In this document: piece after piece, positions 33,480 to 62,163 of the stretch
Position numbering within the stretch: the first letter of the stretch is position 1
Layout: every line of letters begins with the position of its first letter
Origin: Anaerohalosphaera lusitana
GTDB taxonomy: Bacteria > Planctomycetota > Phycisphaerae > Sedimentisphaerales > Anaerohalosphaeraceae
Reading direction: 5' to 3'
NCBI RefSeq assembly: GCF_002007645.1
Contig: NZ_CP019791.1
Location: 2,170,001 to 2,234,000 of the forward strand
Length of the DNA stretch: 64,000 bases
Made by a program: the position numbers and the translations under genes
Notes under the pieces: model-generated
The model's input: the letters and a program-made list of their open reading frames with translations, nothing else
Told to the model about the DNA's origin: nothing
Databases searched by the model: none

Positions 33480-38112
<4,633 letters not shown>

Positions 38113-38145
38113 TCAACTGAATATTTCAGAAAGGAAAGAATAAAA

Positions 38146-39027
38146 ATGTCTAATCCAATCGAAAATCGGTATGAATTCGTATATCTCTTCGACGTTGAAA
38201 ACGGCAATCCCAACGGCGACCCGGACGCAGGCAACATGCCCCGGATCGACCCCGAGACCAGCTACGGCATCGTTACGGACGTTTGTCTCAAACGTAAGAT
38301 TCGCAATTTTGTTGAGATCGCACACGACGACAAAGCACCCAATTGCATATACGTGAAAGAGAGGGCTATTCTTGCCAGTCAGCAGGCAAAAGCTTACGAG
38401 GCTCTCAAGCTCAAGAACGATAAGAAAAACGGTGACGGAATTGCTCAAGCACGACGGTGGATGTGTCAGAATTTTTATGATGTTCGTACATTCGGTGCCG
38501 TAATGAGCCTACAAAATTACAACTGCGGTCAGGTTCGAGGCCCTGTGCAGATTAACTTCGGACGGAGCATAGACGCTATCGCCCCAAGGGATCTTTCGAT
38601 AACACGCATGGCTGTCGCCACCGAAAAAGAAGCTAAGTCTCAGGGCGGTGACAACAGGACGATGGGGCGCAAATCCATTGTTCCATATGCTCTCTATCGC
38701 ACTGAGGGATATGTTTCAGCATGCCTGGCGGAAAAGACAGGCTTTGGTGAGGATGATCTGGAGCTGCTCTGGAACTCTCTTGTCAATATGTTCGACCACG
38801 ATAGATCCGCAGCACGGGGCAAGATGTGTCCGCGGAAGCTGATTGTTTTCAAGCACGACAGCAAACTCGGCAACGCCCCCGCACACAAGCTGTTTGAAAC
38901 GGTCGATGTCAAACCGTGCGAAGGCAACCCGCCTCGTGGTTGGGACGATTACGAGGATGGTCTGTCATGTCCGCCTAGCGGCTCGCTGGACGGTTTTAAC
39001 GGCGTCGAAGTTATGCACATACTTTGA
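38146..39027 (+). CDS. cas7c: Cas7c/Csd2 backbone subunit
   Basis: The 293-aa protein carries the Csd2/Csh2 signature ([25 protein letters not shown]) and the thumb/QNY region ([16 protein letters not shown]). Six or seven copies coat the guide RNA in the Cascade complex. The ribosome site AAAGG lies 11 nt upstream. Its end overlaps or abuts cas4. Confidence 0.96.
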
Positions 39028-39029
39028 TC

Positions 39030-39701
39030 ATGTACTCCGAAGACGAGCTTATTTCGATCTCGGCATTGCAGCATTATGCGTTTTGTCCGCGTCAGTGCGG
39101 CCTTATACACATAGAGCAGACCTGGCTGGAAAATATGTTCACTGCTAAGGGACGTGTGCTGCATGAAAAAGTTCACGAAAGTGACAACGAAGTCCGGTCA
39201 GATTTGCGGATCGTACGCGGCCTGCGAATAAGGTCGCTTCGCATTGGTCTTGTCGGTCAGTCGGATGTCGTGGAGTTTCTTCGAAGCGAAACGGGAATTG
39301 TGCTGCCGGGAACAGAAGGTCTCTGGCAGCCTTTTCCGGTTGAATACAAGCGCGGCAAGCCAAAAACTGATTCATCCGACAGCATTCAGCTTTGTGCACA
39401 GGCTATGTGTCTGGAAGAAATGCTGAACGTTAGTATCGAAAAAGCGGCAGTATTTTACGGCAGACCTCGCAAACGGTTTGAAGTCGATGTGACAGACGAG
39501 CTGCGAGAGGAGACGGTGACTGTACTTAAGGCAATTCGTACTATGCTGACGACAGGGCAGACGCCAAAGGCCAAATACAGCCGAAAATGTAAAAGTTGTT
39601 CGCTTTACGCTCGCTGTATGCCCAGAACCACAGGCATTAGTAAACGCATTGGTGCATATATCAGCAAAGCTTATGAGGATCCAGAGGAGGTGCCGGACTG
39701 A
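39030..39701 (+). CDS. cas4: Cas4 (type I-C, FeS exonuclease for spacer processing)
   Basis: The 223-aa protein has the Cas4 start HYAFCPRQCGLIHIEQTW, nuclease motifs (VEYKRGKPK) and a terminal Cys cluster (KCKSCSLYARCMP). The Cys residues hold a 4Fe-4S cluster. It trims prespacers and selects those with a proper PAM. I chose ATG 39030; an in-frame TTG at 39024 overlaps the cas7 stop. It overlaps cas1 by one base. Confidence 0.96.
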   Translation: MYSEDELISISALQHYAFCPRQCGLIHIEQTWLENMFTAKGRVLHEKVHESDNEVRSDLRIVRGLRIRSLRIGLVGQSDVVEFLRSETGIVLPGTEGLWQPFPVEYKRGKPKTDSSDSIQLCAQAMCLEEMLNVSIEKAAVFYGRPRKRFEVDVTDELREETVTVLKAIRTMLTTGQTPKAKYSRKCKSCSLYARCMPRTTGISKRIGAYISKAYEDPEEVPD

Positions 39702-40732
39702 TGAAGCAATTGTTAAATACGCTTTTTGTGACTACGCAGGGGGCATATCTTTCCAAGAAGGGCGATACGGTTGTCGTTAATGTCGAACACAAGCCGGTTC
39801 TGAGAGTGCCCGTTCACAATATCGGATCCATCATATGTTTCGGTAACGTAATGTGCAGTCCCTTCCTGATGGGATTATGCGGGAAACAAAATGTGACACT
39901 TTCATTTCTTACAGAAAACGGTCGTTTCCTTGCTCGTGTACATGGGCCGGTAAATGGGAATGTACTGTTGCGTAAAGAGCAGTTTCGCAGGTCCGACGAC
40001 TTGAATGCCAGTGCCCGTATCGCTCAAACAATGGTAACCGCGAAAATCGCCAACAGCAGAATAGTGCTGCTGCGACACCTTCGTGATAGCTGCAGTATTG
40101 AAGGTGTTAACATTATTCGTAACGCTGTTGAAAATATGATGGAGCATCTGCAGACCTTGCAGGATGAATGCTCTCTGGATACAGTCAGGGGTGTCGAAGG
40201 CATGGCAGCGAATGCATATTTTGACTGCTTTGATCATCTTATGACGGCGAACAAGGATGCGTTTGTCTTTGCGACCCGCAGCCGTCGGCCACCTCTTGAC
40301 AACGTAAATGCTTTGCTCTCATTCGTCTATACTTTGCTGGTGCGTGACGTTGAATCGGCCCTGGAAAGTGCGGGGCTGGACCCTGCAGTGGGCTTTCTTC
40401 ATCGGGACAGACCCGGCCGTCCCAGTCTGGCTTTGGATGTAATGGAGGAATTGCGTGCGTACCTGGCGGATCGCTTTGTTCTTTCGCTGATCAACCGTCA
40501 GCAGGTCAGGCCTTCGGGCTTTACCAGAACCGAATCCGGTGCGGTTATGATGGATGATCAGACTCGTAAGGCACTGCTGGTCGCCTGGCAGAAACGAAAA
40601 CAGGAAGAAATAATGCACCCATTTCTTAAAGAAAAAATCTCGCTGGGATTGCTCCCTCATGCACAGGCAATGTTGCTTGCCCGTTATCTGCGGGGAGAGT
40701 TGGAAGGATATCCGCCGTTTCTTTGGAGATGA
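39701..40732 (+). CDS. cas1c: Cas1 integrase (type I-C)
   Basis: The 343-aa protein shows the Cas1 catalytic positions: Glu in RGVEGMAANAYF, His in VGFLHRDRPGRPSLALDVMEELR, with Asp in the same helix. It integrates new spacers next to the leader with Cas2. It follows cas4 directly. Confidence 0.97.
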   Translation: MKQLLNTLFVTTQGAYLSKKGDTVVVNVEHKPVLRVPVHNIGSIICFGNVMCSPFLMGLCGKQNVTLSFLTENGRFLARVHGPVNGNVLLRKEQFRRSDDLNASARIAQTMVTAKIANSRIVLLRHLRDSCSIEGVNIIRNAVENMMEHLQTLQDECSLDTVRGVEGMAANAYFDCFDHLMTANKDAFVFATRSRRPPLDNVNALLSFVYTLLVRDVESALESAGLDPAVGFLHRDRPGRPSLALDVMEELRAYLADRFVLSLINRQQVRPSGFTRTESGAVMMDDQTRKALLVAWQKRKQEEIMHPFLKEKISLGLLPHAQAMLLARYLRGELEGYPPFLWR

Positions 40733-41225: not shown

Positions 41226-42446
41226 GTCGCTCCCATCACGGGAGCGTGGATTGAAACATCATCTGCACATGCGGCTCAACATCCACCAACGTCGCTCCCA
41301 TCACGGGAGCGTGGATTGAAACAGCGTCTCGGTCGTACTCTCCGCACTCATCCTCGGTCGCTCCCATCACGGGAGCGTGGATTGAAACAGGGTAGCGAAC
41401 GCCTTACCGAACTTGTTAAGATGTCGCTCCCATCACGGGAGCGTGGATTGAAACCACACTGTCACAGAGATAAAGGAGGTGCTGTAATGGTCGCTCCCAT
41501 CACGGGAGCGTGGATTGAAACGTACTGGTTCGGGTTGGTCAATTCCCGATGCAAGGTCGCTCCCATCACGGGAGCGTGGATTGAAACATGTAGCCACACA
41601 CCTTGTGGCGTGATTCGTAAGGTCGCTCCCATCACGGGAGCGTGGATTGAAACAGCATCGGCGGGTGTATTGACATCAAAGAGCAGTGGTCGCTCCCATC
41701 ACGGGAGCGTGGATTGAAACATCTAGCCAGCTCTTAACACGGTCGATATCCCAAGTCGCTCCCATCACGGGAGCGTGGATTGAAACGGTCGGGCCTTATT
41801 TAACCCTTTACGGAGGTCTGTCGCTCCCATCACGGGAGCGTGGATTGAAACATAAATGTCGCGCCCTCAAATGACTGCGTTACCAGGTCGCTCCCATCAC
41901 GGGAGCGTGGATTGAAACGTCGCCATTATCGTCCTCTTGTATTGGTGCAGATGTCGCTCCCATCACGGGAGCGTGGATTGAAACAACCTTCTTCATCCCC
42001 TCCTTAAATTCCTGATACGTCGCTCCCATCACGGGAGCGTGGATTGAAACTATTTCGGCGAATAGTCTAGACTAAAAGGGGGCCGTCGCTCCCATCACGG
42101 GAGCGTGGATTGAAACGCCGACACTGTCTCACCGCAATACCGGCAAGCAAGTCGCTCCCATCACGGGAGCGTGGATTGAAACGATTTGCAAGTCATTACT
42201 CGTCAAGTCGACGCCGGTCGCTCCCATCACGGGAGCGTGGATTGAAACGCATTGTCCGATCATCCCACCATCCAGGAGATGCGTCGCTCCCATCACGGGA
42301 GCGTGGATTGAAACCATGCTTAATCGTTTATCCGCATTCCGCTGCCATGTCGCTCCCATCACGGGAGCGTGGATTGAAACTATCTTATATCGCACCAAAT
42401 CAAGACCAGACCAAGTCGCTCCCATCACGGGAGCGTGGATTGAAAC
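41226..42446 (+). CRISPR. Type I-C CRISPR array, 19 repeats
   Basis: Nineteen copies of a 32-bp repeat start at 41226, 41291, 41357, 41423, 41490, 41556, 41622, 41689, 41755, 41820, 41887, 41953, 42019, 42085, 42151, 42217, 42283, 42349 and 42415. The repeat begins GTCGCTCCC and ends GTGGATTGAAAC with an inner CTCCC/GGGAG palindrome, typical of I-C. Eighteen spacers of 33-35 bp lie between them. All repeats look identical, which suggests an active array. The array reads with the cas genes. A nineteenth spacer-like segment and a 9-bp piece of repeat (GTCGCTCCC at 42482-42490) follow the last full repeat. Confidence 0.99.
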
Positions 42447-42598
42447 ACTGAGGATTGCTCCTTCCTGCACGCTGGCTGAGCGTCGCTCCCTTATTCTTTT
42501 ACCATCGTCTTACTCCGACAAATTACTCAATACACTGAGTAATTTTACTTTATCTACAAAACAGTGTAAGGCTTTGCCCAACAACGGCTTGTAAATGC

Positions 42599-42743: not shown

Positions 42744-45700
42744 TTATTGAGCCCAGTCGTTTGCAAGCTGTGTAAAATCTAAGAGATCAATTTTCTGATC
42801 TCCATTTGGAAGTGGAGCTACATCGACAACAGGATTTGTGTTGTAGTTGAGCCAGGCTTCACCCAAAATAAGCAGGTCGGCGATGTCGATCCTGCAGTCT
42901 TTTGTGAAATCGGAATGATAGGGAGTCGTAGCGAGGTCTGCATTAGTTTTCTTTACATCAACAGCTCCTTCATTAACTTTTGCTTCATTCAATTCGACTG
43001 TCACGGGCGTGCAATTGAGCGGCCCCGAGGCAAACTGAATGTCAGCCATCTTGCCGTCATACTGCATCGGCTGAGCGCCTGCCAATGCAAGTTTAATCGT
43101 TCCCGGAACGGCCGTATTTGAAATAAAGCTGAAGTTGTTCAGCCCAACCATTTCGCCCTGAGTTACTATCGGTGTACCAAAAATTGAGTGGTCGTATTGA
43201 ACCGTGAGATCAACAGAATAGATTTCGGTGCCGTCCTCAAATGTAATATGTATAGGCAATGTGCAATTCTCATGAGGTAAATATGTTTTGTCTGTCAGAG
43301 ACACCGCTGTTGAAGGATCGGTATTACTGTTCAAATCACTCATGGTCTGCTGTGCCATAGAATCGCTCCAGTTGCCTGATACGTCACCAACAAGAATGCC
43401 CGTGAAATTCTGTCCTGGCTGATCTGTATTCAAAAGAGGGAACTCTCTTTCTTCCGGCACGAACGTCCAGATTTCTTCACTGCCGGGGAACGGAACCGAT
43501 ATCAAATCGACCGCTTTTTGTAGGATATATGATGCATCCATTGCTGAAACAAGCCCATTCCTGTTTACATCTGCAGCGATTTGCTGGTTCTGTGAAAGGG
43601 TCCGAAGTCCCGCGTCGGCCTGTAAGATGAGTGATGCATCGAAGGCTGTTATCTCTTGGGCATCGTTCGACTTAGCAGGTTTGAGGCGATAGCTGCCAAC
43701 GGGAATGTCTTGCATTGAGTAAGACCCGGTTCCTTCGCTAACAGTATCAATGGGATTGCCCACGCCCGAAAGGGTCAGAGCAGTGCTGGGTATTCCAGCC
43801 AGGTCGTTGAAATAGCTGACTGTGCCGCTGATCCCGAACAGGCCGTTGACGATGACGCTGCCGTTGTCGACCGCATGCGATATCGTCCCATCGTTAAGGA
43901 CCGAACTGTGAATAGTCAACGGCGAAGTTGCCGGAGGTGGTGCAATGATCTCAAATTTTATGACAGCTAAATCTCCAGTGTCGCTTACAGAAGCAGCGCC
44001 TGCTGTAGATATTCGGATTTCTCCAGCCGTAGCAGTGTTTGCTGTAAAGGACCAGTCAGGGATGAGTCCACCTTTGTTTACACTGCTGATGTTCAGTATG
44101 CTGCTATCATATTCAATGGTACAGCTCGCAGCCAGAAGCCCCTGGACATCGGCCAGTGTGAGTGGGACAGTAACAATGGTTCCATAATCACCCACAGCCT
44201 CAGGCAAGGAAATGACGATCTGTTCATCGTGGAATGTAAATGCATTAGTTAAACTGCATGAAGTCATATCAGGGTTGATCAGCTTCACATCCACGAGTGC
44301 AGGGTCGTGGGATGGGGTTTTACAGCGGATTTGTGACGAACTCAAGTATTCGACGTCAACAGCTTGCTCTGTGCCAAACATAACGGTCGCCCCTGTCTGG
44401 AACATGCTGCCGGAAAGCGTTACAAGTGTCCCCCCATCTGCTGAGCCGGTATTTGGACTGACTGAATTAAGTGAAGGGGCATTTTCTACATTTACTGTAT
44501 GCGGCAAAGCAGGCGTTCCGTTATAAACTGTGCTGATGCCGTCGGTTGCTGTGATGTAGTAATCAAGGCCGGGGGGCACTACTGCTGAGCCTGAAATACT
44601 CGCACTCCACATGCCTTCGCTTGTGTTAAGCATTGACAGTGACCGGAAAACTTCTTCACCTATTGCTCTATAATACAGTGTTACGGATTCCACTGTGACA
44701 TTGTCACTTGCAGATGCCGTGATGCGGAGATTGGTGCCCCCAACAGCCTCAAAAACAGGGGTATGCGTAATTTCGGGAACTATAGTATCCAGGGGCGCAG
44801 CTGATGCAACATTCGAATAGTTCGACTCGGTGTAATCTGTTTTTAACACGGTAAATTTGTAGTAGAGCGGCACTGCTGGAACAACGTCTGTATCAGTGAA
44901 GTATTCACGGCCGACCGGAATGATAGTGTCATTGATTTTTTCGTACGTTCCGTCTAAAGTAGTACTCCGATATATGTTGTAACCGGCCAGCATGTCAAAA
45001 TCATCCTGCTGCCAACTTAGTTCGATTCTCCCTTCACGGCCTGTTGCATGCAGCGTCATGGCTAGTATGCCCATTGTTTTAACTTCGAACCGGAATCTAC
45101 CAACATCATGACCAGTGACTAGCCATGGGTCATCTGCGGCAACAGCTCCGGATATGCGTATGCAATGGTAACCGTCTCCGGTCACTGGGACTACCCAGAA
45201 AGAGCCCTCCCAGGTGCGCGCATCGATCCAGCCGGCATTGTCGTTATCTATTGGCTTGACAACGAAATCTGTGTACGGCGAGGTTGGACCGAATGTCACA
45301 AATGGAATATTGTTTGGATCGGTGTTCATGTCTCTGTTGAAAGTGACGCGGAAAGTAGTTGGACCCATGCCAACCTCTGGAATAGATAGGGCGGATTGGC
45401 CGTTAATATACAGGCCATCGACAAAAGGATAAGTGGACTCATATCCACGGGCAGGGGGCTGGCCGTAAACAACTTTTGCCTTGGTGAAATCATCGTAATA
45501 ATCATAGATCAGATAATCGATGAGTGTCGATGAATCTGTTCCCCAGAAATTGTCTTTCATGGTTACAATGTTCTCATTATTCCCTGGTGCTTGTATATGC
45601 ATCCAGTTATTCAGACTTGGATCCCAATACTTGTTCAAAAATGCATTAAATCTAAAATGCCCTGTGTCGGCTTGAGTCACGTAATCCAATGCCTCCTGAG

Positions 45701-48629
45701 ATCGCAATTTAGTAGTCAATTCGTTGGCAGTCCATTCTCCCGGCAGCTTGAGAACAAAGTTATCGCCGATACGGTACCATCCGCTGAACCCTGAAAAGCT
45801 CTTCCAGTCAAATCTTGTACCAAGGTTCATGTCGTAGTATGCGTCTCCAAAATACATATGCGGAAATGCTCCGCCTGGAGTTCCGCCAAAGCCATTGTAA
45901 GTGTATACCAATTCATTACCGTCCAGCCACACCCATTCTCTTGGAAACCCCCTCGTCGTGAGGCCAAAATGAGTTCGCATGTAACGGTTGTTTGCAAGCT
46001 TGGTTTCCATCAACTGCTGCTCATCCTCTGACAAAATTGAAGCTATGTGTCCGCCCATGAATTGTGCAAATCGTTCAACCATATCAAACTCAACACCCGA
46101 TGCGTGTAAACGGGCATACGTCAAATCAGAAGCGGCATCATAGTACGCATAATCAAAAGAATAAGCTGAGGAAAGCACTTCAGGGATCGTTGTAGCCCGG
46201 GGTGTGAAAGTTACAGGCTTGTTATTCTCTATATCCATTAAAAATACATTGTCCACAAATTCGAGAGAGTTCGAATGAGGCCATGTCCATCCGCTATTGA
46301 AAAGGCAACTCTTGTAATATCCGATATTTAGTGTGCCCTGCGGCCTTAGCCGGTGGAAAATACAGTATCCCGCTTCTCTTGCATGGATTACCGGTGTTCC
46401 ATAGTCCTGCTCAAAATAGCAGTGATCAAGTGTTCCCATCCCGCTATGAATTTCCGGGTTGCGGACGGTGGTGTATTTCATGTTAGCGGTTCCCCCGTTA
46501 AATGTTATCTTTGTTGTCTGTCCTGCAACAAGATAGCTTGGAAACATGTTTACGGGTTTGTCTTGAGTGCCCTGAACCTCAAGCTTGCCTTCCACAACGA
46601 AGTAGCCATTCTGCGGACCAGGATTATAAGGATCATCGCTGACTGATCCAAATTGAATCTGACTTCCTTCCGCAATCGTTAGCGTAACTCCCTCTTCGAT
46701 CAGTACTGGTCCGCCGACAATCCAGAATTCATCTGAAGTTAAAGTCATATCCTGTTCAATTACTCGCGGTACGTTTTTGCCTCTCGTCACCACGTAATTC
46801 CAACGGCTTATTCTAGTGAAGCTTTCAGGGTTGTCTGGATCCCAGCCATCGTTAAAGGTTATAGTAAGTTCAAATGGAATCACATGTTCGTTCGGACAGT
46901 TCGGAGCCACTCTAAACACAAGCGGGTCATCGACACCTATGATCACTCCGTCCTGGTCATAAATGAGCCCGTTGTCGTACATACTCCATGGCCCCATTGC
47001 GGATATGCTGGACGTTCCGTCGATTATCTCGACATATGGGTCATCTATCATCGAACCCTGGGCGCGGGCACGTAAGGTCAAATCTATGTTCTCAGCCGCA
47101 CCACTTCGGTTGATCAGCTCGATGCCCATATGAATCGTTTCTCCGGCATCAACCGAACCGTCAGCGTCATTTTCATCGGATATCGCTGGGTCGTCAAAGA
47201 TCCAGTTGTCATACATAGTTACACCTGGGGTCGGCGGAGTCGTAACGGCAACATAAGCGTCACAAACTGTACCACTGCTTACGATGCTTGCCATCAAAAA
47301 CCGATTGGAATAAATGTCCCGCTGCCAGAAGAATGATCGAAGCAAAGCTGCTGTACCTGAAACCACAGGAGCCGCCATGGATGTTCCGCTCCATTCTGCA
47401 TAGCTGTTGTTCGGAAGCGTGCTTAGGATGGATTCGCCAGGAGCCATTATATCTCCTGGGTTTGAAAACCAGCTTTTTTCGCCGTCAGTATTACATGAAG
47501 CAACACCAATCACATAGGGATATTTGGCTGGGTAACAGGGAATTGGTGCGCTGTCGTTTCCGCTGGAGGCTACCAGAACCGCCTGACTCAGTGCGACTTC
47601 TAATGCATCGGTAATTATCTGGCTGTATTGATAACCGCCGAAACTCATGTTTATAACTTCCGCACCATTTTCAGTTGCATATATGATGCCCTCGGAGATG
47701 TCCTGAATAGTTAAAGTTCCCGTGTACTGAGCAGCACGAATTGCCATGATCTTGGTGTTGAATGCTGTCCCGATTATACCTTTGCCATTGAACGCCTGCG
47801 CAGAAATGATCCCTGATACGTGCGTTCCGTGCCCGTGCATATCCATGGGGTCACCGGAATGGCTGCGCGGGTCAGAAACCACGTTGCAGCCGTGAATGTC
47901 ATCGATAAAACCATTGTTGTCGTCATCGATCCCGTTGCCGGGAATCTCAGCGCTATTGACCCACATGCTAGCCTGCAGCTCTTCATGTGTGTAGTCAACA
48001 CCGGAATCGATTACTGCAACGGTCACGTCACTGTTTCCCCCGGCACAAATGCCGTTTGTGTTGATGTAGTTCCAGGTGGCCTGTATTTCTGCTTGAGTCA
48101 AATACCACTGCTCGGGGTACATTGGGTCTGTGGTTCCATCAGGTAGGTTCTCTATGGGTGGATCAAATCCCCAAGCCATCTTCCACTCATAATTCGGTTC
48201 TACGTATTCAATTGATTCATCTTTGGTGAGCTGTTCGATGAGCTGCTGTATGTCCACATTCTCGTCCGTGGAATAGTGATACCAGCGGCGTAGATTCTTC
48301 TTTTTCTGCTCAAGCCCGTTTCGCGAATTCAGTTTTGATATCTGCTGGCTTCCTTGCTTAAAGGCATGCTCAAATACTCCCCGGCCTTTTTGTAAGCCGC
48401 GGCCCTTGAGCTTTTCTTTTACTCTTGGACGGAGCGTTCGTGCTGATCTTTCAGTTTTGCCGGCTGACTTGACTTCAACCAGGGCAGATTCCTTGAATTT
48501 GATCAGAATCTCTCGCGGTTGGTAAGAGTCTTTGTACTGGGCTGAACCGCGTTCGGTGAGCTTGCCGGCTTTAGTTTGAGCGCAGATGGCGAACAAAACC
48601 AGCGACGCAATTAAGAATTGCTTAAACAT
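42744..48629 (-). CDS. Giant secreted subtilisin-like (S8) protease with dockerin-like tail
   Basis: The 1961-aa protein has a signal peptide (first about 21 residues), a prodomain (35-150) and an S8 catalytic domain with Asp208 (VIDSGVDYTH), His267 (HGHGTHVSG), Asn358 and Ser417 (SGTSMAAP). Then follow beta-helix-like and C-type-lectin-like regions (about 660-950), Ig/fibronectin-like repeats, an IPT/TIG domain (SVSPNTGSADGGTLVTLSGS), two cohesin-like beta modules and two dockerin-like Ca2+ repeats (DVNRNGLVSAMDASYILQ; DCRIDIADLLILGEAW). The last repeat ends in LLDFTQLANDW, a planctomycete-style C-terminus. It is probably exported to digest host or environmental protein. Its presence between CRISPR and the Ubl module is unexplained. 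Confidence 0.9.
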   Translation of the reverse strand: MFKQFLIASLVLFAICAQTKAGKLTERGSAQYKDSYQPREILIKFKESALVEVKSAGKTERSARTLRPRVKEKLKGRGLQKGRGVFEHAFKQGSQQISKLNSRNGLEQKKKNLRRWYHYSTDENVDIQQLIEQLTKDESIEYVEPNYEWKMAWGFDPPIENLPDGTTDPMYPEQWYLTQAEIQATWNYINTNGICAGGNSDVTVAVIDSGVDYTHEELQASMWVNSAEIPGNGIDDDNNGFIDDIHGCNVVSDPRSHSGDPMDMHGHGTHVSGIISAQAFNGKGIIGTAFNTKIMAIRAAQYTGTLTIQDISEGIIYATENGAEVINMSFGGYQYSQIITDALEVALSQAVLVASSGNDSAPIPCYPAKYPYVIGVASCNTDGEKSWFSNPGDIMAPGESILSTLPNNSYAEWSGTSMAAPVVSGTAALLRSFFWQRDIYSNRFLMASIVSSGTVCDAYVAVTTPPTPGVTMYDNWIFDDPAISDENDADGSVDAGETIHMGIELINRSGAAENIDLTLRARAQGSMIDDPYVEIIDGTSSISAMGPWSMYDNGLIYDQDGVIIGVDDPLVFRVAPNCPNEHVIPFELTITFNDGWDPDNPESFTRISRWNYVVTRGKNVPRVIEQDMTLTSDEFWIVGGPVLIEEGVTLTIAEGSQIQFGSVSDDPYNPGPQNGYFVVEGKLEVQGTQDKPVNMFPSYLVAGQTTKITFNGGTANMKYTTVRNPEIHSGMGTLDHCYFEQDYGTPVIHAREAGYCIFHRLRPQGTLNIGYYKSCLFNSGWTWPHSNSLEFVDNVFLMDIENNKPVTFTPRATTIPEVLSSAYSFDYAYYDAASDLTYARLHASGVEFDMVERFAQFMGGHIASILSEDEQQLMETKLANNRYMRTHFGLTTRGFPREWVWLDGNELVYTYNGFGGTPGGAFPHMYFGDAYYDMNLGTRFDWKSFSGFSGWYRIGDNFVLKLPGEWTANELTTKLRSQEALDYVTQADTGHFRFNAFLNKYWDPSLNNWMHIQAPGNNENIVTMKDNFWGTDSSTLIDYLIYDYYDDFTKAKVVYGQPPARGYESTYPFVDGLYINGQSALSIPEVGMGPTTFRVTFNRDMNTDPNNIPFVTFGPTSPYTDFVVKPIDNDNAGWIDARTWEGSFWVVPVTGDGYHCIRISGAVAADDPWLVTGHDVGRFRFEVKTMGILAMTLHATGREGRIELSWQQDDFDMLAGYNIYRSTTLDGTYEKINDTIIPVGREYFTDTDVVPAVPLYYKFTVLKTDYTESNYSNVASAAPLDTIVPEITHTPVFEAVGGTNLRITASASDNVTVESVTLYYRAIGEEVFRSLSMLNTSEGMWSASISGSAVVPPGLDYYITATDGISTVYNGTPALPHTVNVENAPSLNSVSPNTGSADGGTLVTLSGSMFQTGATVMFGTEQAVDVEYLSSSQIRCKTPSHDPALVDVKLINPDMTSCSLTNAFTFHDEQIVISLPEAVGDYGTIVTVPLTLADVQGLLAASCTIEYDSSILNISSVNKGGLIPDWSFTANTATAGEIRISTAGAASVSDTGDLAVIKFEIIAPPPATSPLTIHSSVLNDGTISHAVDNGSVIVNGLFGISGTVSYFNDLAGIPSTALTLSGVGNPIDTVSEGTGSYSMQDIPVGSYRLKPAKSNDAQEITAFDASLILQADAGLRTLSQNQQIAADVNRNGLVSAMDASYILQKAVDLISVPFPGSEEIWTFVPEEREFPLLNTDQPGQNFTGILVGDVSGNWSDSMAQQTMSDLNSNTDPSTAVSLTDKTYLPHENCTLPIHITFEDGTEIYSVDLTVQYDHSIFGTPIVTQGEMVGLNNFSFISNTAVPGTIKLALAGAQPMQYDGKMADIQFASGPLNCTPVTVELNEAKVNEGAVDVKKTNADLATTPYHSDFTKDCRIDIADLLILGEAWLNYNTNPVVDVAPLPNGDQKIDLLDFTQLANDWAQ

Positions 48630-49538: not shown

Positions 49539-49808
49539 TCAGGCTTTTGAGGGGTCGATTTTTTCGATGTTGTTTTGTTTTGGATTACCGCTGATTATCC
49601 AGTCACCGTAATAGCATCCTGCGTAGTAGATCATATCTTCGATGATACGCAGCATGTCACAGTTTCCGTTTTCATCGATGAGTTTTATATAGCTGGTGTA
49701 AGTGACGTGGATGTTTTGGTAGGGTCCCAGCACGGGCCCGTCAAGACCCCAGTCATCCATTTGCTGTGCGGGATCTTTTCTGCCGTGAAACATTTTAATA
49801 AAGACCAT
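49539..49808 (-). CDS. Hypothetical protein, last gene of the Ubl cassette
   Basis: The 89-aa protein has a ribosome-like GAGG just before ATG 49808 and no recognised fold. It is rich in Tyr, Asp and Ile. It follows the E1-like gene after a strong intercistronic hairpin (49837-49876) and is closed by a terminator. It could be a substrate or adaptor of the tagging system, but nothing in the sequence proves this. Confidence 0.5.
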   Translation of the reverse strand: MVFIKMFHGRKDPAQQMDDWGLDGPVLGPYQNIHVTYTSYIKLIDENGNCDMLRIIEDMIYYAGCYYGDWIISGNPKQNNIEKIDPSKA

Positions 49809-49883: not shown

Positions 49884-50534
49884 TTACTCGGTTACACTGA
49901 TTTCCGCGGCAAGCAGATTCAACTGGATATCAGCTTCTGCGGGCATCTGCCGCAGGAATTTTGTAAATTGTGCAAGCATAAACCCGGCCGCTATGTTGGC
50001 ACAGTAGATGGTAGTCTTTGCGGTGCAGGCGCCCGCATACGCCCTCTGAGGCGTAAAAAGGGTCCGGGGGTAATGCAGGCGTGATGATTCGTCGGCAGCT
50101 GTTATTACCCTGAGACTCTCAGCGGTCATCCTGCCGTCGACAAAGAACGTGGATCTGTCTTTGACCGCCTGCCATATCAGCCTTCGTGTATGGATAGAGT
50201 CTACCGCACAAAACACACAGTTGCCGATCTCTCCGCTGCGTTTGAACCTTTGTTCGACCGATACTACCTCTAACTTGCTATTGATCTGCCTGCACAGTCC
50301 TGCGGTGGCCCTTACTTTGGGCTTGCCCAGATCGGCTTCAAAATATCCCTGGCTGGCAATGTTAGTTACTTCGATTAGGTCGTGATCGATCAATTGAAGC
50401 CACGGGATGCCCATAGCTGCAAGCTGTAAAGCTACCTGCCTGCCTATGGCTCCAACACCGATAACCGTTGCTCTGCAGGACGCAATCCGTTCTGCCGGAA
50501 CAATGTCCTGTTGTCTAGAATATCTCGGGTTCAT
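49884..50534 (-). CDS. E1-like (ThiF/MoeB-family) ubiquitin-activating enzyme
   Basis: The 216-aa protein starts at MNPRYSRQ, with the RYSRQ motif of E1/ThiF proteins. The adenylation domain has GVGAIGRQVALQLA (nucleotide binding, 26-39), acidic LIDHDLIEVTNIASQGYF (49-66) with the catalytic Asn/Arg region GKPKVRATAGL, and Cys-Thr-Ala-Lys (170-173) and Cys178 in the later part. E1 enzymes adenylate the Ubl C-terminus and often form a thioester. It lacks the large ubiquitin-fold domain of eukaryotic E1. Its ATG overlaps the JAMM gene's stop (ATGA), so they are translationally coupled. Confidence 0.85.
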   Translation of the reverse strand: MNPRYSRQQDIVPAERIASCRATVIGVGAIGRQVALQLAAMGIPWLQLIDHDLIEVTNIASQGYFEADLGKPKVRATAGLCRQINSKLEVVSVEQRFKRSGEIGNCVFCAVDSIHTRRLIWQAVKDRSTFFVDGRMTAESLRVITAADESSRLHYPRTLFTPQRAYAGACTAKTTIYCANIAAGFMLAQFTKFLRQMPAEADIQLNLLAAEISVTE

Positions 50535-51316
50535 ATGAACACCTCGCTTTCGTCGTCCCATAGATCAGGTCTTTGTGCCAGCTCATCCATAACCGAGCGG
50601 CGTGTTGCCGGATCGAGCGCCTCTAGCTGGTCGATCATATCATTTGAAACCACCAGATCATCCCAGAACTCATCATGTTCGGAGCCGGCAAGGTTCAGCG
50701 CATCGGCAGATGTTGACGCCCAGGGGATCTCGATGACGTTTTGTTCGTATTCAGCGTCCCAGCTGTCATGATCGGTTGGACCGAACTGACAGCCGTAGTC
50801 AACACGAACGGGAATGAGCATGTCAGCGCCTGGCCCCACATTAAAACGCAGCTTTGCAAAAGTGTTGTCGTCCTCTGCCAGTATGAACATGACCGCCCAC
50901 TGACAGGATCCAAAGACCCTTGCAAACGTCTCGTTGTCGGTGGCACTCGGTGTGGGTGAGTCGGATGGATGTGTATGCAGCCAGACGCGGGCGAACTGCT
51001 CGGGTCTTTTGCCAGCATCGACCTGCCTGTCAAAATAGTCCGCCACGGCTTCGTCATGGAAGCTGACAGTTACCGATGTTACCTGCTGAGTGATGGTGAC
51101 AAACTCTCTTACGTACAGCAGGTCATCGGTATCGGTGACCGCAAAGCCCGCCACCTCATTATCGCTTTTGTCGCGAAAATACAAAAGCTTTGCCCATGCG
51201 GTGGGGCTGAATCGAAGAATGGGGTTGAAATTTTTACTGCGTTTTTTCTTTTGATTTGATTTAACTGTTTTCGATTGTGATCTGGTCCTGGCTGTCGTTT
51301 TGTTTTTCTTGGCCAT
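50531..51316 (-). CDS. JAMM/MPN (JAB) metalloprotease, predicted deubiquitinase-like
   Basis: The 261-aa protein starts at ATG 51316 (AGGAG 8 nt upstream). After a basic tail the JAB domain shows Glu54 (DNEVAGFAV) and HTHP-x6-SxxD at 114-127 (HTHPSDSPTPSATD), the full zinc-ligand set of JAMM proteases. Such enzymes remove ubiquitin-like tags or process Ubl tails. The C-terminal 90 residues are acidic and unassigned. The start is embedded in the last 56 nt of the E2-RING gene. Confidence 0.88.
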   Translation of the reverse strand: MAKKNKTTARTRSQSKTVKSNQKKKRSKNFNPILRFSPTAWAKLLYFRDKSDNEVAGFAVTDTDDLLYVREFVTITQQVTSVTVSFHDEAVADYFDRQVDAGKRPEQFARVWLHTHPSDSPTPSATDNETFARVFGSCQWAVMFILAEDDNTFAKLRFNVGPGADMLIPVRVDYGCQFGPTDHDSWDAEYEQNVIEIPWASTSADALNLAGSEHDEFWDDLVVSNDMIDQLEALDPATRRSVMDELAQRPDLWDDESEVFI

Positions 51317-52280
51317 TTTCATTGCTCCTTTCTGCCAGGCAGTCCCGGCAAATATCTTCTCCAATACACTTGACGCAAAAGTTGTCGCCGCATTCCGAGC
51401 AGGTTCGTGTGCAGTCGGGGCATATGGTATCTCCACAGTCGATACATTCGTCCTGACACGATATACAGGCGGTGATCTGACGGCAGCACTGACAAAACAT
51501 TACGCAGCCCTGGCAAAAGTCGTAGCCGCAGAACTCGCAGTATAAGGTGTGATCGGGATCTGTGATAAAGCCGCATTCGTAGCAGGATATACCCTCCCAG
51601 TCCTCTATCGGTATGTACGGACTCTCAGGGTTGTAGACCTTGAGAATGCTTTCGACCATGCTGAAAAAATCAGCAAACCTTCCCTGCTCAAGTGCCTTTC
51701 GGATGGGGACGGTTCCATCGCCTTCGCAGACCAGCTCATTGCTGATATGCGGATGGGTTACGGCCGATTCCGAGGCGGCAGGATGCGGATCCAGGGCGGT
51801 GACATAGTATTTGCTGCGGTTGTCACTGCTCGTGAGCCCTTCGATGTACAGCGATATCTCAAAGGGCCCCAGATAAACCCCTTCAAGCGTGATCGGTGCG
51901 GTGGTCACAGAGAGAGTGTCCCTTGGCGGATCAAATCTAAAGCCGCCGCAGTCGGCTTCGATCTGATCGAGCTCTTCGATGAGCTGTCTGATAGTCGGTG
52001 TTTTTGTCCTGGGCGGTGCAAGCGTCTCTTTGTTTGCACTTATCCAGTAGTTAATCTCCAGGCAGAGCCTGTCGATTCTGCTAAGACATTTTTTTGCGGC
52101 CCCGTGCCAGCCCCTTACGGCGGCCAGCTCGAGCTTGTGCGAGTTTTTCATGATGTGTGCCGCCATATCCGCAAACCTCTGGGTCCTGTGCGATGTCTCG
52201 ATGAGCCTGTTGCAGCGGCCGGTGATAAGGGCCTGCTGGAGCCTGGCTGCGATTTTGAGTTTTTCTTTTGTTGGGTTCAT
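51261..52280 (-). CDS. E2-like domain fused to RING/treble-clef zinc fingers
   Basis: The 339-aa protein starts at ATG 52280 (AAGGA at 7 nt). Residues about 100-225 look like a ubiquitin-conjugating (E2) fold: strands ending YYVTALDPHP, then THPHIS, and Cys185 (NELVC), followed by helices ADFFSMVESILKVYNPESPY. In eukaryotic E2 enzymes HPNxxxxGxxC has the same order, with His at about -10 from the catalytic Cys; here H176 to C185. Residues 230-315 contain ten Cys pairs (CYEC, CEFC, CQGC, CPDC, CSEC, CVKC, CRDC) as in RING-like and treble-clef fingers. It would combine conjugating (E2) and target-choice (E3-like) roles. The homology is by motif and has not been searched. Confidence 0.75.
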   Translation of the reverse strand: MNPTKEKLKIAARLQQALITGRCNRLIETSHRTQRFADMAAHIMKNSHKLELAAVRGWHGAAKKCLSRIDRLCLEINYWISANKETLAPPRTKTPTIRQLIEELDQIEADCGGFRFDPPRDTLSVTTAPITLEGVYLGPFEISLYIEGLTSSDNRSKYYVTALDPHPAASESAVTHPHISNELVCEGDGTVPIRKALEQGRFADFFSMVESILKVYNPESPYIPIEDWEGISCYECGFITDPDHTLYCEFCGYDFCQGCVMFCQCCRQITACISCQDECIDCGDTICPDCTRTCSECGDNFCVKCIGEDICRDCLAERSNENGQEKQNDSQDQITIENS

Positions 52281-52351: not shown

Positions 52352-52579
52352 TTACTTTGGTCGCGCGCCCTGGACCTTTGTCGGTGTAATCGTAATCCTG
52401 TCGTTTGGCTGGAGGATATAATCACGCGGTACCGGCTGACGGTTGACCCGGATCAGATAATCTTCGGGGCTGTCGGCCGGCATCTTCTTGTTGAAAAACT
52501 GCTCGACAGTCGTGTTTTCGCTGATGTCGATATAGTCGGCAAAGCCGCCTCCTGAGTTGTTTACATAGAGAATACGCAT
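52352..52579 (-). CDS. Ubiquitin-like (ThiS/MoaD-type beta-grasp) protein
   Basis: The 75-aa protein has the compact beta-grasp outline: an N-terminal strand (MRILYVNNSGGG), a helix (TTVEQFFNKK), and VNRQPVPRDYILQPNDRITITPTKV, which matches the RVNGE.VPRDT.L.DGD.V...P pattern of ThiS/MoaD. The C-terminus is VQGARPK, not GG. Conjugation would need trimming after Gly71, perhaps by the JAMM protease. Ribosome site AAGGG lies 7 nt upstream. The next genes are the E2-RING, JAMM and E1. Confidence 0.78.
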   Translation of the reverse strand: MRILYVNNSGGGFADYIDISENTTVEQFFNKKMPADSPEDYLIRVNRQPVPRDYILQPNDRITITPTKVQGARPK

Positions 52580-52729: not shown

Positions 52730-53590
52730 TTATCCGTTTTGGGATGATTTGAACATCTCAGGCGCGATCTGATCGAGCGTTGTGGGCCTAAAGTACAGAT
52801 CCCGCTCGACCGGCAGTCCCAGAGGACCGCGAAGTTCTTCGAGCTCTTGGAGGCTTATATAGCCCAGCTCCTTGCAGTGACCCTCTACCAGGCCGAACAT
52901 CTGGTAGTCGATGACGTTGCCTGCCCTGTCCTTTACCGGCTCGGCTTCGAGTATCCACCAGGTAAAAGATGAGTCGGGTGTAAAGAGCTTGCAGTGTGCC
53001 AGGGCCTTGCCGCCTTTGCCGTCCTGGCTGCCTAAAGGAGGCAGTTTTTCACGAAGATCCTCTGTCAAAAGCTCCATGCCCCGGATCCTGTTGTTGGCCT
53101 GTGCCCTGGTCGATGTCTTCTCGGTTGCTGTGAGTATCTCGGCTGTGCTGCTGACAAACTCCGTGAGGTTTTGGTTCTGCTCCTTGCGATCGATCGGATC
53201 GGATTCACAGGCAGGTATAGGTCTTGTCAGAAGCTCGACCTGGTCGGGATTGAGTTCTATGACCACCCGGCCGTTGTCCTGGGAATACCACTCAAAGTAC
53301 GGGTACTCGACATAGTCGGCCGGCTGCAGCCCTGCGGTCATGTCTCCCGCCTTGCCTTTCTGGGTCATAGAAAAGCCCTGCATTCTGCTCGTTGCTTTGC
53401 CGCGATCGCATGCTTCTCCGTCACCGCGAAGCAGTACCTTTGAGCCCCTGATATCCCTGTGGAAATTGCCGTCCAAATCAAAGGTTACTTTTTCCTCGAT
53501 ACCGGCAAACTTCATCCAGCCGGTGATCTTGCCCTGTCGTGTGTTGTCCAGTACGCCTTCAATAAATTGTTCATTTGGTCTCCATGCCAT
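52730..53590 (-). CDS. DUF2958-domain protein with unassigned N-terminal domain
   Basis: The C-terminal 115 residues match the plasmid/ICE family DUF2958 (GMELLTEDLREKLPPLGSQ, CKLFTPDSSFTWWILEAEP, FGLVEGHCKELGYISLQELEEL, GLPVERDLYFRP). The N-terminal 170 residues are beta-rich and unrecognised. Start ATG 53590 after AAGG. It leads the Ubl operon, 150 nt upstream of the Ubl gene. The role of DUF2958 is unknown; it is a marker of conjugative or mobilisable plasmids. Confidence 0.8.
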   Translation of the reverse strand: MAWRPNEQFIEGVLDNTRQGKITGWMKFAGIEEKVTFDLDGNFHRDIRGSKVLLRGDGEACDRGKATSRMQGFSMTQKGKAGDMTAGLQPADYVEYPYFEWYSQDNGRVVIELNPDQVELLTRPIPACESDPIDRKEQNQNLTEFVSSTAEILTATEKTSTRAQANNRIRGMELLTEDLREKLPPLGSQDGKGGKALAHCKLFTPDSSFTWWILEAEPVKDRAGNVIDYQMFGLVEGHCKELGYISLQELEELRGPLGLPVERDLYFRPTTLDQIAPEMFKSSQNG

Positions 53591-53669
53591 TTGTATCACC
53601 TTACCTTTCTTTTTGCGTTTTAGTTTTTCGTTTTCGTTTCAGTTCTGCTTTGCTTCTTGCTAAATAACA

Positions 53670-57440: not shown

Positions 57441-59525
57441 ATGCGGCTAAAGCCGATACTGGGTAAAAAGATAGACTCGCTCTGGAAGGCCTACCTGCTC
57501 TCGGAGGGCAGGGACGAGAAGGCGGATATACTGCAGACTCTTGAAATCCTCGCCGAAAAACACCTCGGCTCATCGATCGACAACTCATCGGATCCTTTCC
57601 CGCCGCCTGATAAGGGTTCGGTTGCCGCCGGTGATATAGAGCTTGGGACAATCCGGTATGCCGGCCGCGATATATCACCTTTGAAACTCAAATCAGACAG
57701 ACTCAAAGAGCACCTTCTTGTCGCCGGCAGAAGCGGGTCGGGAAAGACCAACCTGACGTTCGTTCTTGTCGACAGTGTCATTCGAAGCGGTATAAAGGTA
57801 CTCGCACTTGACTGGAAGAGGGGATATCGCGATCTAAAGCAGGTGCATCCGGATTTAAAGGTCTATACGGTCGGGCGTGATATTTCTCCTTTCAGGTTCA
57901 ATCCGCTGATACCGCCGCCGGGCTGTGAGCCCAATATATGGATCAAGCTTATCGTGGATGTGATCGCGGATGCATACCTGGGCGGTGAGGGAGTGATAAG
58001 TCTTCTTGTCAGCGGACTTGAGCATCTTTACAATGAGTTCGGAGTCTATGAAGGGATCGGTCCTAGGTGGCCCACGATAAAGGATCTGCTCGGCTGGCTC
58101 AAAAATGCAAAACTCAAGGGAAGGGCAGCTCAGTGGCAGGCGTCCGCTCAGCGTATCCTGATGGCGATGACCTATGGTGAGTTCGGCAGGGTAGTCGAGA
58201 CCCAGGACAACAGCGATATTTTAAAACTGCTCGATGAAAACTGTGTGCTGGAGATGGACGGGCTCTCTGCCAATACCGATAAGGTGATGTTCTCAGAGGC
58301 CCTGGCGCTCTATGTTTATCGCCACAGACTCGCCCAGGGTCCAAGGGATAAGCTGACCAATCTCCTGGTCATAGAGGAGGCACACAACCTCCTGCACGCC
58401 AAACAGGCAGGATCCAGAGAGTCGGTCCTGGAAAACTCAATCAGGATGGTGCGCCAATACGGACTTGGATATGTGTTCGTCGATCAGTCGGCGTCGCTTT
58501 TGAGCAAGGTGGCGTTTGCAAACTCTTATGCAACGATTGCACTGAGCCAGAAACTGAGATCAGACATCACCTCACTGACCAGCGCAATGAATCTCGACGA
58601 CGATCAAAAATCTGCCCTTTCCCAGCTTGAAAGGGGCGAAGCGATAGTAAAGATCGCAGACTGCTCACCCAGGCCGTTCAGGGTCAAGCTGCCTCTTTTC
58701 GAAATAACGGAAGGTGAGATTACCGATGCGATGCTCAGATCCGACCGCGACGGCGATTCCGCCCGGTCCGGTCAAACCGGGGGCAATTCTGCCGGGTCCG
58801 GGGCTGTTTCGGACGGTCCGGAAAAGGAAAAGGAAGTTGATAAAATATTGAAGATACTCGACGAGATAACAGCTTCCCACCCACCCGCGGACCAGGAAAA
58901 AGATAAACAGTCGCATTCAACGGAACAATCCCACCCACCCTCCATGATAATGACAAGAGAGATGATAAGGTTTCTGGACGATATAGTGCAAAGGCCGTTG
59001 AGCTCGACTGTAAAACGATATAATCGCCTGAGGTTTTCAAGGCGCAGGGGAAACGCCATCAAAAAAGAGCTTACAGCAGCCGGGATCATAGACGCCGTCT
59101 CCGTTCCCACCCGCACCGGTCAGGTGGTCCTTTTACAGATATCCGACAACGCCCGGGGCCTGTGCATCCGGGAGGGGATATTCCCGCCTCGCAGGCGAGA
59201 GAGCATCGAACATCTTTTCTGGAAGGAAAAAGCAAAAGAGTATTTTGCCGACCTTGGCTATGACGTCTCGCTCGAACACTCGGTCACAGACAACGGAGTC
59301 GTCGACCTTGTCGCCAAAAATCACCGCGAAAAAATAGCAGTCGAGGTCGAGACCGGCAAATCCGACATAGCCGCCAACATCAAAAAGCTCAGTGATACTG
59401 ATTTTGATAGACTGGTGCTCGTAGCGACGAATGCGTCGGCGGTCGATAAGATTGACAGGGCGATTGCCGGCTGTGATAACCCGCGGGTGCCGATTGAACG
59501 TCTTTGCTGGCTCGATATTTCATGA
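57441..59525 (+). CDS. HerA-like ATPase fused to a PD-(D/E)xK nuclease-like domain
   Basis: The 694-aa protein has Walker A (GRSGSGKTNLTFV, 96-108), a large ATPase core up to about 420 with Walker B (LLVIEEAHNLL near 305-315), a Ser/Gly/Glu linker, a winged-helix and a C-terminal fold (about 585-690) with RESIEHLFWKEKAKEYFADLGYDV, NGVVDLVAKN and VEVETGKSD. The Asp and E-V-E-T-G-K fit a PD-(D/E)xK-type nuclease site. The paralogue at 29701 lacks these residues. DNA-pumping ATPase plus nuclease is typical of conjugative or defence machines. It overlaps the convergent gene at 59389 by 137 nt. Confidence 0.82.
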   Translation: MRLKPILGKKIDSLWKAYLLSEGRDEKADILQTLEILAEKHLGSSIDNSSDPFPPPDKGSVAAGDIELGTIRYAGRDISPLKLKSDRLKEHLLVAGRSGSGKTNLTFVLVDSVIRSGIKVLALDWKRGYRDLKQVHPDLKVYTVGRDISPFRFNPLIPPPGCEPNIWIKLIVDVIADAYLGGEGVISLLVSGLEHLYNEFGVYEGIGPRWPTIKDLLGWLKNAKLKGRAAQWQASAQRILMAMTYGEFGRVVETQDNSDILKLLDENCVLEMDGLSANTDKVMFSEALALYVYRHRLAQGPRDKLTNLLVIEEAHNLLHAKQAGSRESVLENSIRMVRQYGLGYVFVDQSASLLSKVAFANSYATIALSQKLRSDITSLTSAMNLDDDQKSALSQLERGEAIVKIADCSPRPFRVKLPLFEITEGEITDAMLRSDRDGDSARSGQTGGNSAGSGAVSDGPEKEKEVDKILKILDEITASHPPADQEKDKQSHSTEQSHPPSMIMTREMIRFLDDIVQRPLSSTVKRYNRLRFSRRRGNAIKKELTAAGIIDAVSVPTRTGQVVLLQISDNARGLCIREGIFPPRRRESIEHLFWKEKAKEYFADLGYDVSLEHSVTDNGVVDLVAKNHREKIAVEVETGKSDIAANIKKLSDTDFDRLVLVATNASAVDKIDRAIAGCDNPRVPIERLCWLDIS

Positions 59526-61053: not shown

Positions 61054-62163
61054 ATGGATTTAACCGAGTATGTGCAAAGACAAAAACACGTCGTCGCTCA
61101 ACAGAGCAGGGCGGTCAGGGACTTTACGGTCTTTGACTACAACTACATCCCGGAAAAACCGTTTATCAGAAGCGAATCAAAGCAGATCATCGATGCTATG
61201 CTGCGGTTTGACGTTTCCGGCATTGCGACTAATTTTGCGGTCATAGGCTCTAGAGGTTCCGGAAAGACGCTTACCATGAAATACCTGGCCAGGGTCGTTC
61301 CGGCCCAGACCGATCTTAGCATGCGGTATGTCAACTGCCGGCATCACAATACCAGCTTCAAGATACTCGCAAGGCTGCTCAACAAGAGGTGTACTGGCCT
61401 AAGTCTCGACAAGCTCTTTGAGATGTTCAGTGAATCGATCACCGGCAAAACGGTCTTCGTGCTGGATGAGGTCGATCTTATGAGCGCAAAGGACAAAAAC
61501 CGCGACATCCTCTACCTGCTCAGCAGAAGCGAAAAGCCTGTTATGGTGATAATGCTCTCAAACAATCCGCATCTTTTAAGGGAGCTCGATGCGGCTTCTA
61601 AAAGCTCGCTTCAACTGGTGCAGATGCATTTTGCCAATTACAACGCTGAGCAGATAAACGCTATCCTGCTGGAGAGGGCACAGAAGGGTCTTGTCAGTTA
61701 CGACTATACAGAAGTCTCTGAAATCGCGGCAATGACCACCAAAAAGACCAACTCCGATACTCGGGTTGCGATAAAGACGCTTTACTATAACGTCACCGAA
61801 CCGCAAAAGTCGGTCGAGTCGTGCTTTGAGAATGCCCGCAAGGACATCGTCATCGATGTAATAAACGATCTGTCCGATCAGAACCTGTTAATCCTCACTG
61901 CCGCCGCACAGAATAAATCCGATCTCACCAAGAACATTTATGACCTGTACTGCAGGTTGTGCCGCAGTCAGTGTGAAAAGCCCTTCAGCTATGTTTACTA
62001 TTATTCCAATCTTGGCTACCTGCAGTCGATTGGGCTGATTGCGCTGGTCTCGACGAAATTCGGCAGGACGTATACCAATCGCGTGGTCCTAACCTTCAAC
62101 CACAGCATCCTCTTCGACACCTGTCGGCTGAGGTTTTCAAGAGTACCCGCACCCCGGAGTTAA
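61054..62163 (+). CDS. Orc1/Cdc6-like AAA+ replication initiator
   Basis: The 369-aa protein has the archaeal Cdc6/Orc1 layout. P-loop GSRGSGKT (65-72), Walker B VFVLDEVD (134-141), sensor 1 (LSNN, 168-171), a sensor-2-like SDTRVAIKTL (234-243) and a C-terminal winged helix (270-365). In archaea it binds origin boxes and loads the helicase. Bacterial elements rarely carry such a protein. The gene is bracketed by boxes A and B, and its stop codon lies within box B'. Box positions suggest autoregulation or origin function. Alternative: a DnaC/other initiator-associated AAA+; the motif order favours Cdc6. Confidence 0.8.
   Translation: MDLTEYVQRQKHVVAQQSRAVRDFTVFDYNYIPEKPFIRSESKQIIDAMLRFDVSGIATNFAVIGSRGSGKTLTMKYLARVVPAQTDLSMRYVNCRHHNTSFKILARLLNKRCTGLSLDKLFEMFSESITGKTVFVLDEVDLMSAKDKNRDILYLLSRSEKPVMVIMLSNNPHLLRELDAASKSSLQLVQMHFANYNAEQINAILLERAQKGLVSYDYTEVSEIAAMTTKKTNSDTRVAIKTLYYNVTEPQKSVESCFENARKDIVIDVINDLSDQNLLILTAAAQNKSDLTKNIYDLYCRLCRSQCEKPFSYVYYYSNLGYLQSIGLIALVSTKFGRTYTNRVVLTFNHSILFDTCRLRFSRVPAPRS

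Follow-up and report, generated by a model that had tools for sequence, protein, structure and literature searches.

A predicted E2 protein with a fused ten-CxxC tail in a four-gene ubiquitin-like cassette of Anaerohalosphaera lusitana

The 64,000-nucleotide stretch of the Anaerohalosphaera lusitana genome analysed here (the window) encodes a protein that is probably the E2 enzyme of a complete bacterial ubiquitin-like (Ubl) conjugation cassette, in which a predicted zinc module is fused to the E2 (Table 1). We favour Ubl conjugation because the JAMM motif of a JAB protease, one Cys of an E1 and a Gly of the Ubl are conserved within a cassette of fixed gene order. A more specific picture is tentative: a four-gene Planctomycetota Ubl pathway in which the E2 and a multi-zinc ligase would form one chain, the oxyanion site would carry HPH, the mature Ubl would end in Gly-Ala instead of Gly-Gly, and relatives of the cassette would reside on viral contigs.

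Table 1. Coordinates of the E2 gene, its predicted parts and the neighbouring cassette genes in the window
Feature	Position	Strand	Basis or remark
E2 (UBC-like) protein: N-terminal helical hairpin, UBC core (HPH...Cys185) and ten-CxxC tail	51261..52280	-	339 aa from the preferred start; ORF reaches 52349
UBC core as modelled, 142 residues	51594..52019	-	AlphaFold pLDDT 89, pTM 0.84; best 50 Foldseek and VIA rows all E2s
Active-site segment HPHISNELVCE with HPH and the invariant Cys	51723..51755	-	Conservation and profile alignment
Predicted zinc tail, ten CxxC pairs	51339..51584	-	20/20 Cys unchanged across 28 sequences
Ubiquitin-like protein, 75 aa, ThiS-like beta-grasp	52352..52579	-	PF02597 ThiS E 6e-4, narrowly missing the curated cut-off
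JAB/JAMM protease of about 261 aa with the full HxH-x7-S-x2-D motif	50531..51316	-	Prok-JAB PF14464 E 4e-6, over the cut-off; start read from sequence
ThiF/MoeB-type E1, about 216 aa, without a separate Cys domain	49884..50534	-	PF00899 E 3.7e-24
Small protein, recurrent downstream of E1	49539..49808	-	11 matches among loci of the order
Protein with C-terminal DUF2958, recurrent upstream of Ubl	52730..53599	-	PF11171 E 3.9e-12; 24 loci

Fold and active site of the E2 core

The gene lies on the minus strand in an ORF of 362 aa running from 52349 to 51261, and no open frame was found on the plus strand of 51261-52280. The start at 52280, used in an earlier sequence-only reading of this DNA, is M24 of that ORF and is likely the real one, since this Met is kept in at least 90% of relatives and is preceded by AAAGGA, a ribosome-binding-like site. 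In M24 numbering, HPH occupies residues 176-178 and the Cys is residue 185, exactly as the sequence-only reading had it, and its estimate of about ten Cys pairs between residues 233 and 314 proved to be exactly ten CxxC pairs, from 233/236 to 311/314. Among 28 full-length sequences from the same order, 33-40% identical to the window protein, both His residues and the Pro of HPH, Cys185 and all 20 tail Cys are invariant; HPH and the Cys are also invariant in 59 core sequences. The dN/dS values of 0.11-0.27 between fairly close pairs of relatives indicate that the frame is under purifying selection. In the model, the protein begins with a helical hairpin (residues 26-110 of the 362-aa ORF).

That the core adopts an E2 (UBC) fold with a Cys in the catalytic position is supported by the combination of the modelled fold, a profile-profile alignment and the operon context. 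Comparison of the full-length model with the PDB was dominated by helical and coiled-coil matches, with weak E2 rows, and was replaced by a comparison of the core alone. With the AlphaFold core model, built from 59 sequences, the 50 top rows were E2s throughout, both in Foldseek against the PDB (best E 0.014, probability 0.99) and in VIA-align 2, where the best row aligned 120 residues at 3.7 A. The VIA Z scores of up to 7.1 are moderate, and as values below 8 could by themselves reflect a common arrangement, the fold comparison is insufficient alone to establish E2 identity. Still, the model is confident and contains a UBC core, the lack of which had been named in advance as the outcome that would speak against an E2.

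At the sequence level the relationship is distant. The proposed search with UBC HMMs returned no direct match to the Pfam UQ_con or Prok-E2 models (E up to 1) for any of the 28 full-length or 59 core members, and a sequence search of the core against the PDB gave no direct UBC match. A profile-profile comparison by hhalign, with nine planctomycete E2s above the Pfam UQ_con cut-off as the template, aligned the core with E 1.9e-6 and a score of 43.5, pairing HPH with HPN, the Cys with the catalytic Cys, and YNPESPY with YNxKSPL. The score of column-shuffled templates did not exceed 21.0 (0/200 shuffles reached the true score), and reversed or unrelated templates scored 10-13. The E2-like domain with an HPH...C motif postulated earlier is thus supported by fold, profile alignment and the adjoining Ubl, JAB and E1 genes. 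The replacement of the classical HPN Asn by His is equally real, with HPH in 59/59 core sequences. Departures from the classical active-site residues have precedents among bacterial E2 families (PMC1779556).

The cassette and its distribution

The order Ubl, E2, JAB, E1 is fixed in nearly all loci with enough sequence. In the window, the JAB and E2 genes share a 56-base overlap, and the E1 and JAB genes overlap by ATGA. The JAMM motif is present in 60/61 JAB matches, and the E1 retains GxGxxG, the Asp/Asn/Lys set and a single invariant Cys (57/57; Cys179 when counted along the 225-aa ORF 49884-50561). The Ubl has a conserved end, ...TPxK[IV]xGA, beyond which lies a short, variable extension (...VQGARPK in the window); G71 is kept in 54/54 sequences and A72 in 98%. 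The Ubl of one locus (L044) and that of a viral-contig cassette (L096) stop exactly at GA.

From these features we propose a mechanism in which the JAB protease would trim a short Ubl precursor at the conserved Gly-Ala, after which the ThiF-type E1 would adenylate the Ubl C-terminus and probably hold it on its one invariant Cys. The Ubl would then be handed to the UBC core, onto Cys185 next to HPH, and the zinc tail of the same chain may bind the target, the charged E2 or both and promote transfer, as a RING-type module does in trans. The JAB protease could finally remove the tag. The single-chain "minimal two-step tagging enzyme" of the sequence-only reading is possible within such a scheme, although the protein belongs to a set of four genes that also supplies a Ubl, an E1 and a JAB, a context absent from that reading.

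Two readings would change the chemistry. The cassette might serve a sulphur-carrier or cofactor pathway of the ThiS/ThiF kind, with a catalytically reduced E2-like fold and no protein conjugation, as the nearest relatives of the Ubl (ThiS) and the E1 (ThiF/MoeB) would allow. Sulphur carriers end in GG, whereas the cassette Ubls end in GA, mostly with an extension; together with a UBC fold bearing invariant HPH and Cys and a JAMM protease that is nearly always adjacent, this makes such a pathway very unlikely. Alternatively, conjugation may take place with a lipid, another small molecule or a Ser, Thr or Cys side chain as the final acceptor, to which HPH and the zinc tail would be suited. In classical E2s the Asn of HPN supports attack by lysine; it is absent from all 59 sequences, and UBE2Q, an E2 family that likewise lacks HPN, modifies acceptors other than lysine (PMC11354881). 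However, His may stand in for Asn functionally and no positive evidence points to these other acceptors, so that we regard a non-lysine acceptor as unlikely. Conjugation of the Ubl by the E2 core remains our preferred reading.

Variability is found in the genes accompanying the cassette. At Phycisphaerae loci, additional genes are often those for the DUF2958 protein (24 loci) and for a GHKL-type ATPase (13 loci). In a second group of loci, an AAA ATPase (PF00004; 16 loci) and a 320-aa protein (17 loci) are encoded upstream of the Ubl, as in L120 (6357-8821) and L125 (6270-8733); one or the other is a possible partner for tagged proteins. In the window, genes for a HerA/DUF87-like helicase (57441-59525, plus strand) and an AAA_22-type ATPase (61054-62163) lie near the cassette, and inspection by eye suggests a secreted subtilase-like protein of 1961 aa whose C-terminal part has dockerin-like repeats (42744-48629, minus strand) as well as cas genes among the ORFs at 36382-40732. 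A CRISPR array with 19 repeat copies at 65-67 base spacing (41226-42465) lies about 7 kb from the cassette.

A match is present in 22/161 genomes of the same order. In a draw of 392 genomes across the phylum, full-length copies were found mainly in one other family, with up to five per genome, and the named contigs carrying relatives belong mostly to Phycisphaerae and other Planctomycetota. The predicted pathway is conserved across the phylum. The full E2 protein had no relative in plasmid or phage records, and single-protein scans of genome and viral contigs gave no match, whereas alignment queries did. Two UViG contigs, L096 (9153-12343) and L097, show the order Ubl-E2-JAB-E1, in which the HPH E2 has no tail and the Ubl ends exactly in ...VKGA. 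The occurrence of a tail-less relative in this cassette on viral contigs (L096) suggests that the core can do its chemistry alone and that the tail brings in an extra function. A role of the cassette in defence or in mobile elements would fit the nearby CRISPR array and the cassette relatives on contigs classed as viral.

Leads also come from two phage loci. In the crAss-like phage PhiCrAssBcn1 (L154, 318-4672), three genes precede a ThiF E1: one with a JAMM motif, one of 445 aa with HSHV...C, and one in which an N-terminal part that looks Ubl-like contains KSGA; the last gave no score with the Ubl profile. Possibly these genes are a divergent version of the cassette. The Xanthomonas phage PhiXhv-12 (L155, 1319-4693) has an 893-aa gene with HPHM...C and a Cys-rich C-terminal tail beside a ThiF gene. 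Both the 445-aa and the 893-aa gene were suspected E2s, but the core profile score was not significant for either, and they are kept as leads only.

The predicted zinc tail

The tail follows the spacing C-x2-C-x11-C-x2-C-x4-C-x2-C-x3-C-x2-C. This is not the order and spacing of a canonical C3HC4 or C3H2C3 RING: all ligands are Cys in CxxC pairs, with x4 between pairs 2 and 3, and a canonical RING identity was rejected on spacing. An RBR- or HECT-type catalytic Cys in the tail was likewise rejected, as all 20 conserved Cys sit in CxxC pairs. In searches with the tail profile against the PDB, the best match of the first module was the C4C4 RING of TFIIH p44 (E 3.6e-4), a match that may be helped by the Cys-rich composition. 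Next came the WDFY3 FYVE domain (E 0.0066) and the MID1 B-box (E 0.014); matches to the RNF4 RING further along the tail were not significant. On these profile matches, the tail resembles a set of binuclear treble-clef zinc modules, closest to the p44 C4C4 RING, FYVE and B-box. The RING-like tail claimed in the sequence-only reading is partly supported: the first module resembles binuclear treble clefs, and the spacing departs from that of a canonical RING. The segment joining core and tail (residues 242-251 of the 362-aa ORF) was modelled at low confidence, in a model built without metal, and both zinc binding and a ligase role are predicted functions of the tail.

The zinc tail is modular, since some relatives carry more or fewer pairs. 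The longest tail, in L093 (44-1075), has extra CxxC pairs, as if grown by repeats, and pairs are lost in L094, L137 and L138. This variable length, the non-RING spacing and the closeness of the FYVE and B-box matches to the p44 match would all agree with an E2 core that conjugates the Ubl while its tail acts as a substrate- or complex-binding module of the B-box, FYVE or PHD kind, directing where the tag is placed without being a ligase. We consider such a division of labour plausible but less likely than not: the first four pairs are kept in 28/28 close relatives, and the presence of a similar tail on the E2 of a second family suggests a function tied to the E2.

In this second family (L144, L146, L148-L150), a PF00179 E2 is joined to a long CxxC tail in one chain, the same arrangement of core and tail as in the window protein; the genes include L144:1009-1920 (minus strand), L146:1327-2244 (plus strand) and L149:1300-2265 (plus strand). 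The A1 profile picked up the second-family tail in three genomes. Unlike the window protein, these E2s have a canonical HPN and match UQ_con above the cut-off, and where inspected they adjoin an S1-type protease gene (identified by eye), away from Ubl, JAB and E1 genes. The occurrence of E2-zinc-tail fusions in two planctomycete E2 families suggests that joining the two parts is a recurring solution outside eukaryotes.

If an E2 and a ligase part are indeed joined in the window protein, the cassette would offer a compact setting for three questions: whether the two can act in cis, how an E2 functions when His replaces the HPN Asn, and whether a Ubl ending in Gly-Ala can be activated by an E1. 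The cassette genes are small and suited to reconstitution.

Comparison with known systems

The window carries the gene set of PRTRC or type 6d clusters, with Ubl, E2, JAB and ThiF E1 as separate genes in one cluster, and type 6d operons are linked to the PRTRC cassette. Prok-E2_D (PF14460) had no match in the A. lusitana genome or in the members scanned, and PRTRC membership was rejected for want of such an E2. Bacterial operons of Ubl, E2, JAB and E1 genes were predicted in 2006 by Iyer et al. (PMC1779556). Those of type 6d share with the cassette separate genes for a small Ubl with a conserved C-terminal Gly, E2, JAB and E1, as well as a location on accessory DNA. They differ in having an E2 without a His before the Cys and with a later His (PMC1779556), whereas HPH is invariant in the E2 described here, which is fused to a zinc tail and lacks the Prok-E2_D match.

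The Caldiarchaeum-type operon of E1, E2, RING and Rpn11 (PMC5654768, PMC6043591) is likewise a compact cluster covering all steps of a ubiquitin-like cascade with an Rpn11/JAMM enzyme, but its small RING is a separate protein, while the tail in the window shares one chain with the E2 and departs from a canonical RING. Bil systems (BilABCD), described as tagging pathways (PMC11354881), also encode Ubl, E2, JAB and E1 within a single operon. BilA carries a pair of Ubl domains, and BilB the active-site motif CEHH (PMC11354881), in contrast to the one-domain Ubl of the window. Bil models matched neither the Ubl nor the E2 nor the JAB, and BilD matched the E1 weakly; Bil membership was rejected on the single-domain Ubl and the failure of Bil models for Ubl, E2 and JAB.

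Related operons are the ubiquitin-like ones of Burroughs et al. (2011), which, as covered in PMC4197634, include RING-type zinc fingers and have Planctomycetes among their hosts. Within the literature compared, where these operons are represented via PMC4197634, the E2-zinc-tail fusion and the GA end of the Ubl are provisionally unmatched. The cassette is a variant of the bacterial Ubl operons of Iyer, Burroughs and Aravind.
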